Made by a program: the position numbers and the translations under genes. From Clostridia bacterium (lineage in GTDB: Bacteria > Bacillota > Clostridia > Oscillospirales > CAG-272), in contig JAFTQX010000074.1 in assembly GCA_017462545.1 (NCBI GenBank), forward strand, positions 1-45,635: a DNA stretch of 45,635 nt, written 5' to 3'. Shown here one piece after another: positions 38,197-45,635 of this stretch. Position 1 is the stretch's first letter; each line of letters opens with the position of its first letter. Below the pieces are notes generated by a model, which did no database searches, was not told where the DNA came from, and saw only the letters and a list, made by a program, of their open reading frames with translations.

Positions 38197-41100
38197 TTAT
38201 GACTCTTCGTCGATGATTTCCAGCACACCCGCTTTCACAACAACGTGATAATTTTGCGTTACGACGTTGCCATCCTGATCGTAAATCTCCAAGGAGCCGA
38301 GGGTGTTATCTGCCGTTCCCGGCTGATCGATGCTGCCATCGGCCTCAGCCTTCATGTAATGCCCGTCTACCAAAGATCCCTTGGTAATATCAACACCCGC
38401 ATTCTGCAGGGGCTGACCATCATATACCTTGGTATCACTTGCGGTCGTTACCTCAAGGAAACGAGGATCCACCTTGATCGGAACATAGGTCTCTTGAGAA
38501 TTGCCGAACTTTTCAAAGACGATGCGATACTCATCCGTCACATCCTTGCCGTTTCTAAAAACGGTGTAGGAGACGTATTTCTGCAGATCGGCATTGATCT
38601 CCGCAAGAGCGATCGAGCCAACATTGGTCAGCGAAATATGCAGCGAAAGCTTCAGCTCAAGACCGGTCTCCATCTCCAGAATTTCATAATCGTCATCTCC
38701 GAAGGCAAGCGGAGTACCGTCATAATACTTCTGCAGCTGGTACAAATACAAGCGAATCACGCCAATATTCTTACCAAGCACCTCCAGAACACCGGGCAGA
38801 CAAACGATCTCATATTGGTCTGTCACATCGTTTCCGTTTGGATCATAGAGAACAAATCTCTCGATCGTGCTTTCACTTGTACCTACCTCTCGTTGCCGTC
38901 CACTGACAACAACCTCATAGGCATATCCACAAGACAGAAGCTCACTCAGTACCATATCGGCATCAATGAGGTTTTTGGCGACCAAGTACATACCATCATA
39001 GGTCTTGTACTGATAGCTGGGAGAAATGGTGATAGTCTGCTTCATTTGCTCGTTTTCACCCAAGCCACCGCCTGAGCCACTACCTGAGCCACCATTGCCG
39101 CCGTCTCCACCATTGTCAGAGCCGGTAACCTCAACCTGTATCCAGCCCACGCCGTCAATATATACCTCTACCCATGCGTGGCCGGGGTTCTTTACGTCCA
39201 CAAACTTGCCGCCCTCAGTCATAATCATAAAGCCATGCACATATCTGGCCGGAATGCCCAGGGCTCGATAAAGCAGGGTGGCGGCAGAGGCGTAATGCAC
39301 GCACTTGCCCTCTTGATACTTCTCAAGGAAAGCAATCACAACATTGCTCTCTTTATCCATGCGTTTATCGTATTCGAGGTTATAGGTTGCCGCATTCTGA
39401 ATATAGCTTGCTACCTTTGCAATCACGGCAGGATCTGATATGTCAAAGCCCTGTTCCGCAATCAAACGCTGCATATAGGCAAGCGTTTCGGCATCCACGG
39501 TGAGATAGTTGTCATAGACAAACCGACGATATTCCAATTCATAGGCAGCATATTCACCAAGGTGTCCCTGCAGCAGATAGGGATTATTCACATACTGCGC
39601 CATAGAATAGTAGGTCAGCGTATACTGCGCAAGATCATCTTGATATACCGTATCGCTTGCGGGCTTATTGAAGCTGCCATTCATACCAATATAATAGGGC
39701 AGCATATATGCCTTGCATTCGATCATTTCAGCCAATCGAACGGTTGCGCCGCTATTGATCAATGCGATCGTGGTGAGGAAATTGTAATTATACCCATTGG
39801 GAAGCAATTTGTCATACGGCGTGGCAACACCCCAACCGTGACCGGTATAATTGCCAAAGCTTTCCTGGCGCAGATAGACGATCTCGCTTGTATCCGACTT
39901 GAACTTGGCAAAGAGGAATGAAAAGCTTCCCTCGCCGCTATCCGGCGGCATTTCGCCCATATCAAATTCTCCACCAAGCGAACCCATGCCGCCGCTTCCG
40001 CTACCTTCGCCGCCGCCTTCACCGCCGCCTTCACCGCCGCCTTCACCGCTGCCTTCACCGCTGCCTTCACCGCCGCCTTCACCGCTGCCTTCACCGCCGC
40101 CTTCACCGCCGGATTCACCGCCATCTTCAGGTACCGGCAGAATGGTAATTGTACCGTGCTCTGTTCGAATGGCATAATTCGCGGTAACATCTTCTGCTCC
40201 CGCCATAATTTTTACTCTTCGCAGCTCGGACAAGGACTCGCCAACGACAATACGGCTACCCGAGGTAAACGAAGAAATGGTATGCCCTTCTACCAACGGA
40301 TATTCCGAAGAGGGTGCCACCTCCGGCCCGCCGCCAAACAGGGGCTTGCCGTCGTATACCTTTTCCACATCGATCGGTTTCAGGGCGATCGGACGCGGCA
40401 AAATCATCAGTGTGCCATACTCAAACGTCAGGCAGTAATTGCTCGATTGATCGGTGCCATCTTTCCCTGTGAGCGTGTATTCAAACACATTGCTCACGGA
40501 TCCTACATTGGTGATCGCGGGGGAGGATATCACAGTAAAGATGTCATTATCCGCAATGCCGAGCTCGGAAAGCACCGTATAGTCCGGAGCACGATGCGCC
40601 TCTCCATCATAGATCAGCATGAAGCCATGCGTTCCAATGATAACAGGACGTGGAGTCACCTCCAGCGTTCCCCAACGAACCGTAATATCGTAGTTGCTTG
40701 TTTTATACCTGCCGCTTTGCAGAACAGGCGATATTTCGATGGTGTATCGATTCTCCATCGTTCCGACATCGGTAATTTCGGAGGGATAGATCGCACGCAG
40801 CTCATGACCGTCTGCCAAGCCCAGCTCAGATGTGATCGTATATCCTGTACTGCTATGGGGGTAACTATCATAAACCCAGCTTTCGCTTGCCGTTTCAATG
40901 GTGATAGGGCGCGGCAAGACCGTCAGCACGCCATATTGGATCGTCACATCATAGTTGTAACTCCATCCAAATCCCGCCCCTGCGCTCATATCAATTCTGA
41001 TCTCAAGCACGTTTTCCGTGCGACCTACATCGGTAATAGCGGTATTGGAGCGCACAACAAGAGCATCTCCCTCTACCAGCCCCAGCTCGGAAATCACCTT

Positions 41101-42531
41101 GATCCCATCATTGGTATGGGTATAGGCATCATAGATCCATGTGTCGCTTGCTGTCAGGAGCGTGATGGGGCGAGGTGTCACCCTCAGCACGCCCCAACGA
41201 TTCGTGAAAACATAATTCTCGGTTACATCGGTTTCACCGCTCCAAATGGAAAACGTGATCTTATTATCCGCCTCTCCGCGGAATTTTATAAAGGTCGCGC
41301 TTTCCACACGAGCCTCATGCGAATCGATAAGTCCGTTGATGATATAACCTTCCCACGTATGCTCTGTACCGTCATACATCCACCACTGGCTTTCCGTTCT
41401 TACGGTAACCTCGCGCGGATGGATCACCAGCGTCCCCTCGTTGATAAGGAGCGCATAGTTGGCCGTCTTGTCTACCCCGCTGGCATCCACGATGCGAAGC
41501 TGCATGGAGTTGCTGTAGGTGCCGGCATTGCGCTGAGTCGTGGCTGCCACGATGACGATCTTATGCCCCTCGACAAGCGAGGTGGAAGGGTCGATCACGA
41601 ATTCCTCACAGCGAATATCTTCATCGCTGTATGTTGCCTCATAATCACCCGTGGTAATCACCAGAGGGCGTTTTTCAACCGTCAGATTTCCAATCTGCTC
41701 CGTGATAACATAATGAATGGTTACATCATCGCCGTTTTCATTGATGATCTGTAAAATCGGCTGGTTGACAACTGTGCCAACATCGGTCAACGATTGCTCA
41801 AAGCGCGCTTGGAGGTCATCTCCCTCCTTCAGCGTGCCGCCGCTGAGCTCATATTGGTCATAGGTGAACTTCATGCCATTGTATTCCTGCGAGGCATCTG
41901 CCACCGTCACGGTAATCGCGCGCTTTTCAATGGTAATCAGCTTTGCGGGCGTGTTAAGCCGATAACCGCGGGTTACATCCCTTCCTCTTGCATCGGTAAT
42001 GACCACCGCACTTTGATCGGCTGACACTTTCGTCTGCTCCAAGAGGATATTCTCATAAATAAAGCTGTCGCAAGAAAGCTGATCGCCTGCATTCAGCGCA
42101 GCCGAGGCCGACAGAGGCTCACCGTAAACAATGCGATCCTCGACAACGTGAATGTCAACGTCCTTTGGCAGAATGGTAAACGGCAGCTCCGCGCCGTACC
42201 GTGTGCCCCCAAAAGAGGCGTTGGCTGCCGCGCGGATATAATACTGCCCGGGGAAGCACGGCTCGCCCTCGCTCCATTCACTCTCCCCTTCTTCTCGGAA
42301 TTCAAAGCGCACGCCGCTGAGGAACGCGCTTGCCGAATACTGCAGATCCTCTCCGTAGGTGATCTGCGGTGAGCAGGTCGTTTCTCCTACGATGCCTTTG
42401 GTGGCAAGCAGCGTAATCGTTGTCGCCAGCAGGACAACCGCCGCAGCGATAATCAGCGGGAGAAAGCGCACGATTTTGGCAAGGATCTCCGCGATTCTTA
42501 AAATTCTATTTCGATAATGATCGTATAACAT
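38197..42531 (-). CDS. Membrane-anchored transglutaminase-like protein with MBG-like repeats
   Basis: A 1444-residue surface protein. One membrane helix at about 23-43 anchors it, with the bulk outside. From about 115 to 800 come about eight beta repeats of the MBG kind: each has a YDG- or YDx-type turn (VYDGKPL, IYDGEAH, WVYDSYP), a DVG or NVG turn, an NY strand and a final GTLxVxPRPI strand. A Gly/Glu/Ser linker follows (about 800-840), then a transglutaminase-like domain. Its catalytic Cys1077 is in GKCVHYASAATLLYRALGIPAR and His1118 in GHAWVEVY; the position where Asp is normal has Glu1134 (GWIQVE). A Gly-rich linker and three more MBG-like repeats finish the protein. No LPXTG or SLH motif. 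It is the last gene of the operon, 48 bases after its paralogue, with AAAGAAAGG before the ATG. Whether it crosslinks or cleaves is unknown. Confidence 0.85.
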   Translation of the reverse strand: MLYDHYRNRILRIAEILAKIVRFLPLIIAAAVVLLATTITLLATKGIVGETTCSPQITYGEDLQYSASAFLSGVRFEFREEGESEWSEGEPCFPGQYYIRAAANASFGGTRYGAELPFTILPKDVDIHVVEDRIVYGEPLSASAALNAGDQLSCDSFIYENILLEQTKVSADQSAVVITDARGRDVTRGYRLNTPAKLITIEKRAITVTVADASQEYNGMKFTYDQYELSGGTLKEGDDLQARFEQSLTDVGTVVNQPILQIINENGDDVTIHYVITEQIGNLTVEKRPLVITTGDYEATYSDEDIRCEEFVIDPSTSLVEGHKIVIVAATTQRNAGTYSNSMQLRIVDASGVDKTANYALLINEGTLVIHPREVTVRTESQWWMYDGTEHTWEGYIINGLIDSHEARVESATFIKFRGEADNKITFSIWSGETDVTENYVFTNRWGVLRVTPRPITLLTASDTWIYDAYTHTNDGIKVISELGLVEGDALVVRSNTAITDVGRTENVLEIRIDMSAGAGFGWSYNYDVTIQYGVLTVLPRPITIETASESWVYDSYPHSSTGYTITSELGLADGHELRAIYPSEITDVGTMENRYTIEISPVLQSGRYKTSNYDITVRWGTLEVTPRPVIIGTHGFMLIYDGEAHRAPDYTVLSELGIADNDIFTVISSPAITNVGSVSNVFEYTLTGKDGTDQSSNYCLTFEYGTLMILPRPIALKPIDVEKVYDGKPLFGGGPEVAPSSEYPLVEGHTISSFTSGSRIVVGESLSELRRVKIMAGAEDVTANYAIRTEHGTITILPVPEDGGESGGEGGGEGSGEGGGEGSGEGSGEGGGEGGGEGGGEGSGSGGMGSLGGEFDMGEMPPDSGEGSFSFLFAKFKSDTSEIVYLRQESFGNYTGHGWGVATPYDKLLPNGYNYNFLTTIALINSGATVRLAEMIECKAYMLPYYIGMNGSFNKPASDTVYQDDLAQYTLTYYSMAQYVNNPYLLQGHLGEYAAYELEYRRFVYDNYLTVDAETLAYMQRLIAEQGFDISDPAVIAKVASYIQNAATYNLEYDKRMDKESNVVIAFLEKYQEGKCVHYASAATLLYRALGIPARYVHGFMIMTEGGKFVDVKNPGHAWVEVYIDGVGWIQVEVTGSDNGGDGGNGGSGSGSGGGLGENEQMKQTITISPSYQYKTYDGMYLVAKNLIDADMVLSELLSCGYAYEVVVSGRQREVGTSESTIERFVLYDPNGNDVTDQYEIVCLPGVLEVLGKNIGVIRLYLYQLQKYYDGTPLAFGDDDYEILEMETGLELKLSLHISLTNVGSIALAEINADLQKYVSYTVFRNGKDVTDEYRIVFEKFGNSQETYVPIKVDPRFLEVTTASDTKVYDGQPLQNAGVDITKGSLVDGHYMKAEADGSIDQPGTADNTLGSLEIYDQDGNVVTQNYHVVVKAGVLEIIDEES
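40001..40122 (-). repeat. 12-bp tandem repeat coding for the GEGG/GEGS linker
   Basis: About nine to ten in-frame 12-base units (CCTTCACCGCCG and variants on the plus strand) encode a Gly-Glu-Gly-Gly or Gly-Glu-Gly-Ser linker before the transglutaminase-like domain. They are multiples of three, so copy-number change would alter length but not frame. Confidence 0.85.
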
Positions 42532-42579
42532 AAACCATACCTTTCTTTTAACCGATTCTCAACAAACGGTAAAAGGTAG

Positions 42580-45054
42580 TTATCCAAATGTTACCTTCAG
42601 CTTGCCGCACTCCAGCTTGATCTCATAGCAATCGGTAACATTTTCATCAGCTTCATTAAAAATAAGAATATCCACAATCAGGTTATCCGATCGGCCGATC
42701 TCGGTCTGCGAGCCTACTACCTTATAAGCAAAAATGTAGTCTGAGCCGATCAGTTCACCCAGTATAACAAGGATCTCCTCACATGTCAGGGCGGTACCGT
42801 CATACACCTTTTCCGCATCGCCTGCCTTGATCGTCAGCGCAGCGCGTGTGATATGAAGATGACCATAGCTTTTGTGAATCTTATACCACGAGGAAACATC
42901 CTCGCCGTTCTCGTCGGTAATGATGACGTCAAATCGATTGAGATGGTTGCCCGCAAGGCGGCTTGCCCGCGAGATCACCTTATAGGTGTGTCCCGGCAAG
43001 AACTCACCGCCGGTCAGGTAGCCGGTATCAACGTCTTGACCATCATAGACCTTTTCAAAGTCGTCACTTTCAAAATACAGTTCCTGCAAATACACATGAA
43101 CGTGCCCTGTGTTTATGTTCAGCTTGAACGTATTGGTCACATCCTTGCCGGTGACATCAAAAATAACAATGCTTTGGATGACACTATTACTACGCCCCGG
43201 CTCTGTTTGTGACCCGGTAATGACCACCTCATAGGTATACCCCAGCTTTTCCAGCTCTGACAGACCGATCACGCGGTTTTCCGCATACAGCGGCTTGCCA
43301 TCGTAACGCTTATCAACCGAAACGGGGGATATGTTATACACCTTGGGCTGCGTCACCGGCAATCCGCCTCCAATACCAACACCGGTATTGGATGAGCCGC
43401 CTGTACCGCCGGAGCCACCTGCTCCACCGGAGCCACCTGCTCCACCGGAGCCACCCGCTCCACCGGAGCCACCTGCTCCACCGGTGCCACCGGCAGAGCC
43501 GGTTACCTCTACCTGAACCCAGCCAATGCCGTTCAGATACACCTCGACCCATGCATGCGCTTTATCAGCCGTAATCGTCTCCCAAGAGCCGGCCTTTGCC
43601 TCGGCATAAACGCCTACCGTATATCGGGCGGGAATGCCCAGCGTTCTGTACAACAGCGTGGCGGCCGAAGCATAATGGCGACACACGCCCTCCTTGTACT
43701 GATCGAGGAAGGCCACTACAATATTCTCCTCATCGTCCATCGCACGATCATATGCCAAATCATATCTTGCCGATTGCTGGATATAGGAGGCAACCCGATT
43801 GATGATATCGGCATCGGTCTTTGAGAAGCCCTGCTGCGCAATGATCTTTTCCATATACACGCGCGTTTCATCATCAATGTTCAAATATTGATCATACACA
43901 AATTCGCGGTACAGCTGCTCTGCTGTCAGCAAAGAACGATCTAAACCGCTGACGGCACTGCTGTATTGATAATACGCGACCGCGTATTCAGAGATATCCA
44001 ACGAGCAGACCACATCGTCACCGCCAAAGGGCGAGCCGTCTGCCATGGCATAGTACGGAAGCGCAAACGGGCCGTTTACCAGCTTGATCTGCACCGTATT
44101 TTGTGGTGCCTGGCAATTTGACAACGAAAACGAGGTCAGGAAAAAGGGCGAATAGCCGCCAATGAGCTTTTTGTAAGCAGTAGCATCATCCCAGCCCTTG
44201 CCGTTATAGTCGCCAAAGCTCTCCATTTTTAAGTAGAGATTATCATTGATCTCGGAATAAATGGCGTACAAAACGATCGCTTGATCGTTGCCGATGCCGT
44301 CACCGAGAGTACCGCCGCCCAAATCACCGTTGGCTTCCAAGTTGCCGCCACCGCCGGAGCCACTACCGCTGCCGGAGCCGCTACCACCGCTACCGGAGCC
44401 ACTACCACCGCTGCCGGAGCCGCCTTCTCCTTCAAATTCACCGCCGCCACCGGAACCACCGGAGCCACTGCCACCGCTACCCATATTTCCCGTTTCATCC
44501 TTCTCATTGGTTCGGATGATCAGCTGATAGTTTCTGGTAACATCTGCCCCGTTTTGGTCATAGACCGTGGTGGTCAACGTGGTATCGGGCGTGCCGACAA
44601 CAACGACCTTATGCCCACGCACAAGCCCATCATATTCCCCGGAAACCGTATAGTCTCCCTTTTCATCCACATACACCACCAGAACGCGGGGATTGACGGT
44701 CAGTGTGCCGAAATCAAATCGGATTTTATAATCACCCGTCACATCCACGCCAAGCTCGTCGGTAATGGTCACCTCCATCGAGTTTTCAGCAACGCCTACC
44801 GAGGTGATCGTCCCCTTGAAATTGACCTGCATGGTATGCCCCGCACGCAAATTGCCCTTGGTCTTTTCCCATTGATGGTGCGTCAAGGGCATACCGTCAT
44901 ACAGGGTCTCCTGGCTGCCGGTCGATATCGTAAGATCGCTTCGATTCAGGCTGACAACGCCGCTGATCGCCAAGATAAACAGCACTGCCAGCAAAAACAC
45001 CACTCCAATGATCATGGAGCATAGGATATTGATCGATTTTGTTCGTTTTAACAT
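42580..45054 (-). CDS. Smaller paralogous membrane-anchored transglutaminase-like protein
   Basis: An 824-residue paralogue of the next gene in the operon. One membrane helix (about 10-31) is followed by one full MBG-like repeat (LYDGMPL to GTLTVNPR) and a partial second. A Gly/Ser-rich linker leads to the transglutaminase-like core, with Cys458 in GVCRHYASAATLLYRTLGIPAR, His500 in AHAWVEVY, and Glu516 (GWVQVE) where Asp is normal. A second Gly-rich linker and three MBG-like repeats (RYDGKPL, VYDGQDV, VYDGTAL) end the protein. The whole architecture matches the 1444-residue protein, with fewer N-terminal repeats. It starts 36 bases after the AAA+ gene. The ribosome binding site before this ATG is weak, so it may be coupled to upstream translation. 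Confidence 0.85.
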   Translation of the reverse strand: MLKRTKSINILCSMIIGVVFLLAVLFILAISGVVSLNRSDLTISTGSQETLYDGMPLTHHQWEKTKGNLRAGHTMQVNFKGTITSVGVAENSMEVTITDELGVDVTGDYKIRFDFGTLTVNPRVLVVYVDEKGDYTVSGEYDGLVRGHKVVVVGTPDTTLTTTVYDQNGADVTRNYQLIIRTNEKDETGNMGSGGSGSGGSGGGGEFEGEGGSGSGGSGSGSGGSGSGSGSGSGGGGNLEANGDLGGGTLGDGIGNDQAIVLYAIYSEINDNLYLKMESFGDYNGKGWDDATAYKKLIGGYSPFFLTSFSLSNCQAPQNTVQIKLVNGPFALPYYAMADGSPFGGDDVVCSLDISEYAVAYYQYSSAVSGLDRSLLTAEQLYREFVYDQYLNIDDETRVYMEKIIAQQGFSKTDADIINRVASYIQQSARYDLAYDRAMDDEENIVVAFLDQYKEGVCRHYASAATLLYRTLGIPARYTVGVYAEAKAGSWETITADKAHAWVEVYLNGIGWVQVEVTGSAGGTGGAGGSGGAGGSGGAGGSGGAGGSGGTGGSSNTGVGIGGGLPVTQPKVYNISPVSVDKRYDGKPLYAENRVIGLSELEKLGYTYEVVITGSQTEPGRSNSVIQSIVIFDVTGKDVTNTFKLNINTGHVHVYLQELYFESDDFEKVYDGQDVDTGYLTGGEFLPGHTYKVISRASRLAGNHLNRFDVIITDENGEDVSSWYKIHKSYGHLHITRAALTIKAGDAEKVYDGTALTCEEILVILGELIGSDYIFAYKVVGSQTEIGRSDNLIVDILIFNEADENVTDCYEIKLECGKLKVTFG
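43395..43500 (-). repeat. 18-bp tandem repeat coding for the second Gly-rich linker
   Basis: In-frame 18-base units (plus strand CCACCGGAGCCACCTGCT-like) encode Gly-Gly-Ala-Gly-Gly-Ser repeats just after the transglutaminase-like core of the 824-residue protein. About five to six units. Confidence 0.85.
44341..44482 (-). repeat. Degenerate Gly/Ser-coding repeat, first linker of the 824-residue protein
   Basis: Tandem CCGGAGCCA, CCGCTACC and similar short units encode a Gly/Ser linker with a few Glu residues, between the N-terminal MBG-like repeat and the transglutaminase-like core. Confidence 0.75.
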
Positions 45055-45090
45055 AGTTACATGCTTTCTGTATTTGAAATGTGACGCGCC

Positions 45091-45635
45091 TTATGCGTTT
45101 CTTTCCAGGCGGCGGATGTGCTCCTTACACAGCGGCATCTTATCCGCCCCGAACAGCTCTTCCATGTACGTAATCAACCCCTCTGCCGAATTGCGCAGAT
45201 AGATCGGGTTCTGGGTCTCCAGCTTGCGAATGACCTTCTTCGACAAAATATCGTCAAGGGCCACCAGCTCCTCGCCACCGCAGCTGACATAGACGGGAAT
45301 GTAGATGTTGATCTGCTTCATGATACGGTTACCAAACGTGATATGGAAATGGTCGATCAGATATTGATCCAGCTCTGCAAGCCGCGCACGGTTTCGTGCG
45401 CTGATCGAATATTCCTTCACCGCATCTGAAACCAGCTCTTCAAACTGTACCGCAGAGATCGGTCTCTTCTCCGTATGCGGTGCGGCAAATCGCTCGCACT
45501 TCGTATCCAGATTCAGGATCATCGCACGGTCGTACACCTTATCCGAGATCGCGAAGGTGGAGTCGTCGTTGTTCGCCGTTCCCACAAACCACATGTTCTC
45601 CGGCAGCTTCACGCGTCCGTCCTTCAGCTGAGCCG
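45091..45635 (-). CDS. McrB-like AAA+ ATPase, C-terminal part
   Basis: Only the last ~181 codons are in the window; the gene continues past the right edge, and the Walker A and B motifs lie outside. The frame runs in from the end (AQLKDGRVKLPENMWF) without a start codon that needs to be used. VGTANNDDST is the sensor 1 region and SDKVYDRAMILNL holds the arginine-finger-like Arg of McrB-type (AAA_5) ATPases. The remaining ~130 residues are a helical lid. AAA+ ATPases encoded beside transglutaminase-like membrane proteins are known from MoxR-type clusters (MoxR, DUF58, transglutaminase), and this could be an analogue using a McrB-like ATPase. It is the upstream gene of the operon with both paralogues. 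Confidence 0.8.
   Translation of the reverse strand, partial: AQLKDGRVKLPENMWFVGTANNDDSTFAISDKVYDRAMILNLDTKCERFAAPHTEKRPISAVQFEELVSDAVKEYSISARNRARLAELDQYLIDHFHITFGNRIMKQINIYIPVYVSCGGEELVALDDILSKKVIRKLETQNPIYLRNSAEGLITYMEELFGADKMPLCKEHIRRLERNA

Follow-up and report, generated by a model that had tools for sequence, protein, structure and literature searches.

Membrane-anchored transglutaminase/MBG-like proteins at the downstream end of a possible McrBC-related membrane machine in a Clostridia bacterium

The window analysed here is a stretch of 45,635 nucleotides from a Clostridia bacterium (Oscillospirales, CAG-272), and it comprises one entire contig (JAFTQX010000074.1, here C48) of a source genome of 2.0 Mb that is 81% complete and divided into 78 contigs. 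The last 7.4 kb of the window hold three minus-strand genes separated by gaps of 36 bp (AAA/TG2) and 48 bp (TG2/TG1). They encode the C-terminal part of a McrB-like AAA+ ATPase (AAA2) and two membrane-anchored proteins with a transglutaminase (TG) core and MBG-like repeats (TG2 and TG1). The open reading frame (ORF) coordinates thus agree with an earlier note on this DNA, which had described three tightly spaced genes on the minus strand. The features are as follows.

45091..45633, minus strand: AAA2 (second McrB-like AAA+ gene), C-terminal part, 180 amino acids (aa), with a GTANNDDST motif, a DKVYDR finger and the C-terminal domain; frame open at the contig end
42580..45054, minus strand: TG2, membrane-anchored MBG-like/transglutaminase protein, 824 aa (ORF, Pfam, hydropathy, repeat profile)
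43507..43827, minus strand: transglutaminase core of TG2 (E 3.2e-23), with Cys458, His500 and Glu516 at the triad positions; aligned to 6g49 at E 4.5e-9
42592..43332, minus strand: C-terminal MBG-like repeats of TG2, three, aa 575-821 (single-unit profile)
44515..44934, minus strand: N-terminal MBG-like repeats of TG2, one full and one partial, aa 41-180 (single-unit profile)
38197..42531, minus strand: TG1, membrane-anchored MBG-like/transglutaminase protein, 1444 aa (ORF, Pfam, hydropathy, repeat profile)
39130..39420, minus strand: transglutaminase core of TG1 (E 5.6e-21)
40141..42138, minus strand: N-terminal MBG-like repeats of TG1, eight, the first partial, aa 132-797 (single-unit profile)
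38215..39036, minus strand: C-terminal MBG-like repeats of TG1, three, aa 1166-1439 (single-unit profile)

Both TG proteins lie far above the Pfam cut-off for Transglut_core (PF01841; 70.5 and 78.0 bits against 23). Gly/Ser linkers flank the core region on both sides, and the repeats around it follow an 8 + 3 layout in TG1 and a 2 + 3 layout in TG2 (one pre-core unit is partial in each), as found with a profile of a single unit trained on TG1, TG2 and the proteins of a relative, G356, described below. The earlier description of paired TG/MBG-like proteins, each with three repeats after the core, therefore stands. Membership of the MBG family itself is unproven, because TG2 reaches 15.1 bits against a cut-off of 23.3 for MBG (PF17883), TG1 has no MBG match, and its YDG match, at 19 bits, is likewise below cut-off; ‘MBG-like’ is the correct term. 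From hydropathy, TG2 is predicted to have a single membrane segment at its N-terminus, and TG1 a pair of adjoining ones. Neither protein contains an LPxTG motif or an SLH match in the motif and Pfam scans, as the note had said. It had also described the paralogues as differing mainly in repeat number; the cores differ as well, with 38% identity across the aligned region.

The best relative of the TG core in the PDB is 6g49, which we take to be TgpA. The window cores keep the Cys and His residues and have Glu at the third position, where 6g49 has Asp; relatives have either. Of 41 TG proteins searched by pattern (39 relatives and the two of the window), 37 show the Cys motif and 36 the His motif, one miss being a cut protein. 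A model of the TG2 core with its three repeats, built from a two-sequence alignment, was unusable (mean pLDDT 32). As a lead on the fold of the repeats, those of the G356 TG1 protein (L173:3104-7513) exceed the Pfam cut-off for AgI_II_C2 (42 bits against 27.1). Some linked surface proteins at other loci carry two transglutaminase domains (L254, L257, L259, L278, L281, L282, L284), and at others one protein of the pair has no detected TG domain and up to 19 repeats (L279). A short third transglutaminase-like protein lies elsewhere in the window's genome (G000:C56:8985-9275, in a 373-aa frame).

The AAA gene is cut by the contig end, so that its N-terminal part is lost and Walker A and Walker B fall outside the window. 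In the PDB, McrB is the top match to an AAA profile (E 1.4e-5), and hhalign aligns the AAA to E. coli McrB at E 3.9e-9, which upholds the McrB-like identity first proposed. The AAA motif reads NNDD; it fits NxD followed by D, yet aligns without gaps to the NxxD of E. coli McrB. In Pfam scans the window fragment has no AAA_3 match, and only AAA_5 exceeds its cut-off in the complete AAA1 of G356. Scanning contigs with the aligned sequences of six relatives plus the window fragment identified at least 575 stretches that encode AAA relatives. Within the genus of the window, an AAA relative occurs in 10 of 35 other genomes and a homologue of the TG2 core in none of the 35 (there was one match to the Gly linker). 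The same genus also holds a more distant AAA class of 605–607 aa, ∼35–38% identical to the window fragment (L049, L050, L051); these three loci share a different cluster, with proteins of ∼430, 270–365, 530, 820 and 340–385 aa.

A complete operon is found in G356, a genome from another genus of the same family. There, nine genes separated by gaps of 12–42 bp run in the order U498, U236, U223, GH3/AAA fusion, AAA1, DUF2357, AAA2, TG2, TG1, and the idea of a three-gene system must accordingly be given up. The first three genes encode membrane proteins, of which U498 is CvpA-like at a score below cut-off. The DUF2357 protein is soluble and coiled-coil and is flanked by the twin membrane-anchored AAAs; hydropathy predicts membrane segments in AAA1 and AAA2 of both G356 and G165. 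The AAA2 fragment of the window has its closest relatives in the two AAA copies of G356 (83% identity to each) and adjoins TG2 upstream, as AAA2 does there, and the surface proteins are 44–45% identical between the two genomes. A counterpart of the upstream half lies on contig C55 of the window's genome, which ends with the first five operon genes, AAA1 being represented by its first 104 residues. The ends of C55 and C48 do not overlap. From gene content and order we infer that the two contigs adjoin and together form one operon; judging by the synteny with G356, the missing stretch between them would contain the remainder of AAA1, the DUF2357 gene and the start of AAA2. In a further genome, G299 (L187:1184-6892), a U223-like protein of 1902 aa with a long BspA-type leucine-rich-repeat region directly precedes the GH3/AAA fusion.

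The fusion protein was located as follows.

L184:15408-18791 (G000:C55): GH3/AAA fusion of the window's genome
L172:12790-16155: GH3/AAA fusion
L187:6981-10577: GH3/AAA fusion

It matches a GH3 enzyme up to about residue 640 (7ms2, E 5e-97), continues into a membrane hairpin predicted from hydropathy, and ends in a domain homologous to the AAA of the operon (hhalign E 1.8e-17 over 333 columns). Both halves appear dead. Alignment of all ten full-length members shows neither the nucleophile Asp nor the Lys-His pair of GH3 enzymes in the corresponding columns, and the AAA half likewise lacks Walker A, the Asp-Glu pair of Walker B, the sensor-1 Asn and the finger Arg. Eighteen proteins carry the fusion label, none with a Walker A pattern: 12 are GH3-type (two of them cut), five have a N-terminus that looks zinc-ribbon-like by eye, and one (L278) is mislabelled and is a true GH3 enzyme. 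The fusion is likely a subunit of the same machine. To our knowledge, no pseudoenzyme subunit that joins a dead GH3 to a dead AAA+ domain has been described, although no literature search was aimed at it.

The partner of the AAAs belongs to a family shared with a second branch of loci, in which SipW-like signal peptidases are encoded. TG-type and SipW-type DUF2357 proteins are homologous (hhalign E 1.4e-34, 297 columns), and the Pfam domain DUF2357, a McrC-family domain, is found at E ≤ 0.01 in 17 of 30 TG-type and 40 of 45 SipW-type members, the G356 copy not among them. For the same 30 and 45 proteins Pfam lists no nuclease family, including the PD-(D/E)xK nuclease of the McrC partner, though weak or degenerate folds could escape such a scan. 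The proteins continue into a long, charged, coiled-coil-like C-terminal stretch. The note had proposed looking for McrC-like or DUF58-like partners. Relatives have a gene with the McrC-family domain DUF2357 between twin AAAs, which would place it off this contig, and the assembly of the window's genome contains no DUF58.

We annotated 154 loci (143 and a further 11) that had been fetched by an AAA or TG match, with genes called from ORFs and composition and no trained gene finder. These loci are contigs rather than genomes: L178/L179 and L181/L182 are each the two ends of one operon, L186 is a copy of L097 (100% match), and L175 and L176 are near-identical. SipW genes occur in 94 of the 154 loci (91/143 and 3/11) and TG or MBG genes in 37 (31/143 and 6/11), and none of the 154 has both. 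The 37 TG/MBG loci represent 36 genomes besides that of the window, L299 and L300 being from the same genome. Contiguous AAA-DUF2357-AAA sets number 27, and 20 of them have genes beyond AAA2. An MBG and/or TG gene lies at most two genes past AAA2 in 19 of these 20 sets (L175/L176 being near-copies), and the twentieth is cut by the contig end. The order AAA1-DUF2357-AAA2-surface protein thus recurs in four families, a recurrence that the note had proposed to look for. TG/MBG members come from two families of the window's order (f1 and f20) and, class-wide, from four f40 genomes and one f90 genome; the upstream half of the operon is also present in an f34 genome (L305). Three variants are seen: in one, the dead subunit accompanies two surface proteins; in another, a single TG protein occurs together with U186, a small membrane protein; in the third, a TG-less MBG protein comes first.

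SipW-like signal peptidases are encoded in 86 of 86 loci, made up of the best 80 of at least 575 matches and six from the first search, and DUF2357 in 82 of the 86. Such SipW-AAA-DUF2357-SipW clusters (L065-L144) are widespread in gut and rumen Clostridia; named carriers among the matches listed include Ruminococcus albus and R. flavefaciens, and G344, from the genus of the window, carries a contig identical to L097. By eye, SipW clusters often include short secreted proteins, presumably of TasA/camelysin type. A GGDEF-EAL protein follows the cluster in both loci scanned (L046:13586-16033 and L048:13203-15479), which suggests cyclic di-GMP control of those clusters.

In an AAA tree of 74 rows, 25 SipW sequences (22 random and three chosen) and 49 non-SipW sequences form the two sides of a single branch (support 100*, the asterisk marking a quick method). 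The AAA1s of 11 U186-type pairs form one group (96*) and their AAA2s another (99*), so the duplication predates these genera. In the window's type, the two AAAs of a genome cluster with each other in G356, L257 and L259, three of the four pairs in the tree; in L258 one of them joins L260, from the same genus. Over ∼1.1 kb up to the stop codon, the twins of these four pairs are 99.65% (G356), 99.7% (L257), 98.5% (L258) and 99.9% (L259) identical in DNA, and their N-termini, which carry the anchors, differ in all four. In 16 other AAA pairs the main aligned piece is 488–906 bp long and 69–77% identical; seven of the 16 are of U186 type and come from the window's family, and another is that of G1020, a genome that has the dead subunit too. 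The homogenisation of the twins looks like the outcome of gene conversion, restricted to a single clade.

Twins this similar probably cause assemblies to break between or within them, and the cut in the window itself is probably of this kind. AAA genes are interrupted by a contig end in 26 of the 44 non-SipW loci that lack U186, in 1 of the 14 that have it, and in 2 of 80 SipW loci, a comparison favoured by the fact that the 80 are the best matches of at least 575 and mostly uncut. Five further SipW loci fetched via cut matches (L275, L288, L306-L308) also have their AAA at or near the contig end; a contig break at an AAA gene is therefore no proof of twins.

The SipW-type loci fit the published description of CoCoPALM, whose main text describes a McrB-like domain with an N-terminal membrane segment, a coiled-coil McrC-family partner, exported proteins and a signal peptidase (Bell et al. 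2024, PMC11090510). The same text gives CoCoPALM an NxD rather than NxxD signature and an FtsB-like N-terminal membrane/coiled-coil segment. With this system the window's type shares a McrB-like AAA+ domain, of the same family as the SipW-type AAAs, and, in relatives, a DUF2357 partner with a long charged stretch adjoining the AAA. It differs in having twin AAAs around DUF2357, MBG-like/transglutaminase proteins and a dead GH3/dead AAA+ subunit, and the stretches fetched for the 37 TG/MBG loci encode no SipW-type signal peptidase. Because of this absence the window's system is, as far as that description goes, a sister to CoCoPALM and not a member of it. The main text of PMC11090510 contains no occurrence of ‘transglutaminase’, ‘glycos-’ or ‘MBG’; the open-licence part of PubMed Central yielded nothing joining MBG with transglutaminase, and no other article on the signal-peptidase branch besides Bell et al. 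2024 and its preprint. The locus had been put forward as a candidate new system; it is part of a wider group related to McrBC, in which the signal-peptidase branch already corresponds to the named CoCoPALM.

McrBC of E. coli K-12 likewise shares a homologous AAA+ domain and, in relatives of the window, an adjoining DUF2357 gene, whereas the window's type has predicted membrane segments, no listed nuclease family and no match to E. coli McrC. The MoxR-DUF58-TG clusters (TgpA, the bifidobacterial PFNA operon) were said to resemble the locus in logic and not in parts, and the likeness in logic is supported: each operon combines an AAA+ ATPase, a partner protein and a surface transglutaminase, and the TG domains of such clusters from the same taxonomic order are related to those of the linked proteins. 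The ATPase, however, is McrB-like rather than MoxR (AAA_3), and the partner has DUF2357 rather than DUF58. The transglutaminase of the PFNA operon, as described in PMC6803598, is a many-pass protein, unlike the MBG-like stalks of the window with their one or two membrane segments. In a TG tree, 48 of 50 linked TG domains form one group (96*) apart from 31 other TG domains, whose linkage was not individually checked; the two exceptions, on a long branch, are first domains of double-TG proteins. The tree leaves out L227, L228, L231, L233, L020-L022 and the linked L176 and L260. Among five loci of the other TGs, for which two neighbour genes were scanned, four have a MoxR-type (AAA_3) gene and four DUF58 (one just under cut-off), three having both.

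We read the three genes of the window as the downstream part of a membrane machine, derived from McrBC and lacking a nuclease, that would serve surface transglutaminases, with a probability of roughly 0.55. This reading is based on the complete G356 operon, the matching half on C55, the recurrence of the gene order, the mutual exclusion of SipW and TG/MBG genes, the AAA and TG trees, the homology of TG-type and SipW-type DUF2357 proteins and their lack of a listed nuclease family, and the identity of the twins. The AAA twins and the dead AAA+ subunit might assemble, on the membrane's inner face, into a mixed ring, which the DUF2357 protein would stimulate as McrC does McrB. Action driven by nucleoside triphosphates (NTPs) could then place, activate or cluster the surface proteins via the membrane anchors, after which the transglutaminase heads may make or break amide or isopeptide bonds among surface proteins or wall peptides. 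Assembly or crosslinking of a surface layer, the role suggested in the note, stays hypothetical. In the related SipW clusters the same motor would act on secreted pilin-like proteins as its cargo.

Several points weigh against this machine, whose membrane segments are predicted from simple hydropathy and whose direct action on the surface proteins is putative. The DUF2357 proteins have no direct match to E. coli McrC (probabilities of 0.2% and 0.1%), a PDB sequence search with them returned coiled-coil matches only, and a fold search with a model of a SipW-type member (good for residues ∼11–320, pLDDT <50 beyond ∼410) gave 0 of 638 matches at E ≤ 0.001; the link to McrC is therefore carried by the Pfam domain and the gene pairing. 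No DUF2357 gene was found in the rest of the window's assembly, though the controls were empty as well. The PADLOC profile PDC-M26A matches the AAA1 of G356 at 4e-46 (155.9 bits) and a SipW-type AAA at 125.8 bits. Several loci depart from the pattern: G597 (L253) has the order AAA-DUF2357-TG-TG with the second AAA absent, G608 (L251) and G201 (L180) have a single AAA ahead of the surface genes and lack DUF2357 there (a state that may be either real or an assembly collapse of identical copies), and the TG gene of G654 (L261) is on the opposite strand. G1020 combines the motor genes with MBG proteins that lack a TG domain, and transglutaminase therefore looks optional to the system and not its definition. 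Functional replacement of MoxR-DUF58-TG is also unsupported, and the two systems are not mutually exclusive, as DUF58 exceeds its cut-off in 23 of 49 TG-type genomes (a list including some known only from broken loci) versus 87 of 246 genomes of the family, which overlap the 49.

The TG/MBG proteins might instead be the whole function, as adhesins, wall peptidases or cross-linkers, with the AAAs and DUF2357 merely their quality-control or insertion factors, in the way proposed for MoxR ATPases and the proteins encoded beside them. The relatedness of the TG domains to those found in MoxR-DUF58-TG clusters of the same taxonomic order suits this account, as does a motor better conserved than the surface proteins between the window and G356 (83% vs 44–45%). 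It leaves unexplained why two homogenised motors have different anchors and why there is a dead GH3/dead AAA+ subunit, and we think it unlikely. Anti-phage defence, in which a McrBC relative would sense infection and the surface proteins would be effectors or a barrier, seems to us slightly more doubtful still. It would fit the McrB ancestry of the AAA and the patchy occurrence in the genus, and it retains what weight it has because the AAA matches PDC-M26A, a PADLOC defence candidate (window fragment, E 1.2e-10). That profile, which shares a similar AAA domain, has 724 positions and candidate status only, and the other scanned proteins of these loci are unmatched. Neither the predicted membrane segments nor the lack of a listed nuclease family in the DUF2357 proteins is what defence would lead one to expect, both AAA branches are recurrently linked to exported proteins, and the other window genes look metabolism-like (by eye, with no defence scan of them). 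That an AAA of some unrelated system merely happens to lie beside a surface-protein pair was conceivable while the window showed three genes only, one cut by the contig end; with the order recurring across four families, in 19 of the 20 sets that extend past AAA2, we reject chance as extremely improbable.

A bolder form of the membrane-machine reading can be offered tentatively. A Type IV restriction motor may have been turned into an envelope machine, in which a mixed ring of gene-converted twin NTPases with different anchors, joined by a doubly dead subunit, drives or gates surface transglutaminase heads; the same motor, with pilin-like cargo, would be widespread in gut and rumen Clostridia. 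The twin motors would offer a natural test of how mixed AAA+ rings are constructed. Near-identical twins probably split assemblies within the operon, which is then easily missed in metagenome-assembled genomes. If the membrane-machine reading is true, McrBC relatives would not be solely defence nucleases: one branch would be a surface-building membrane machine, common in gut bacteria and with interchangeable cargo.

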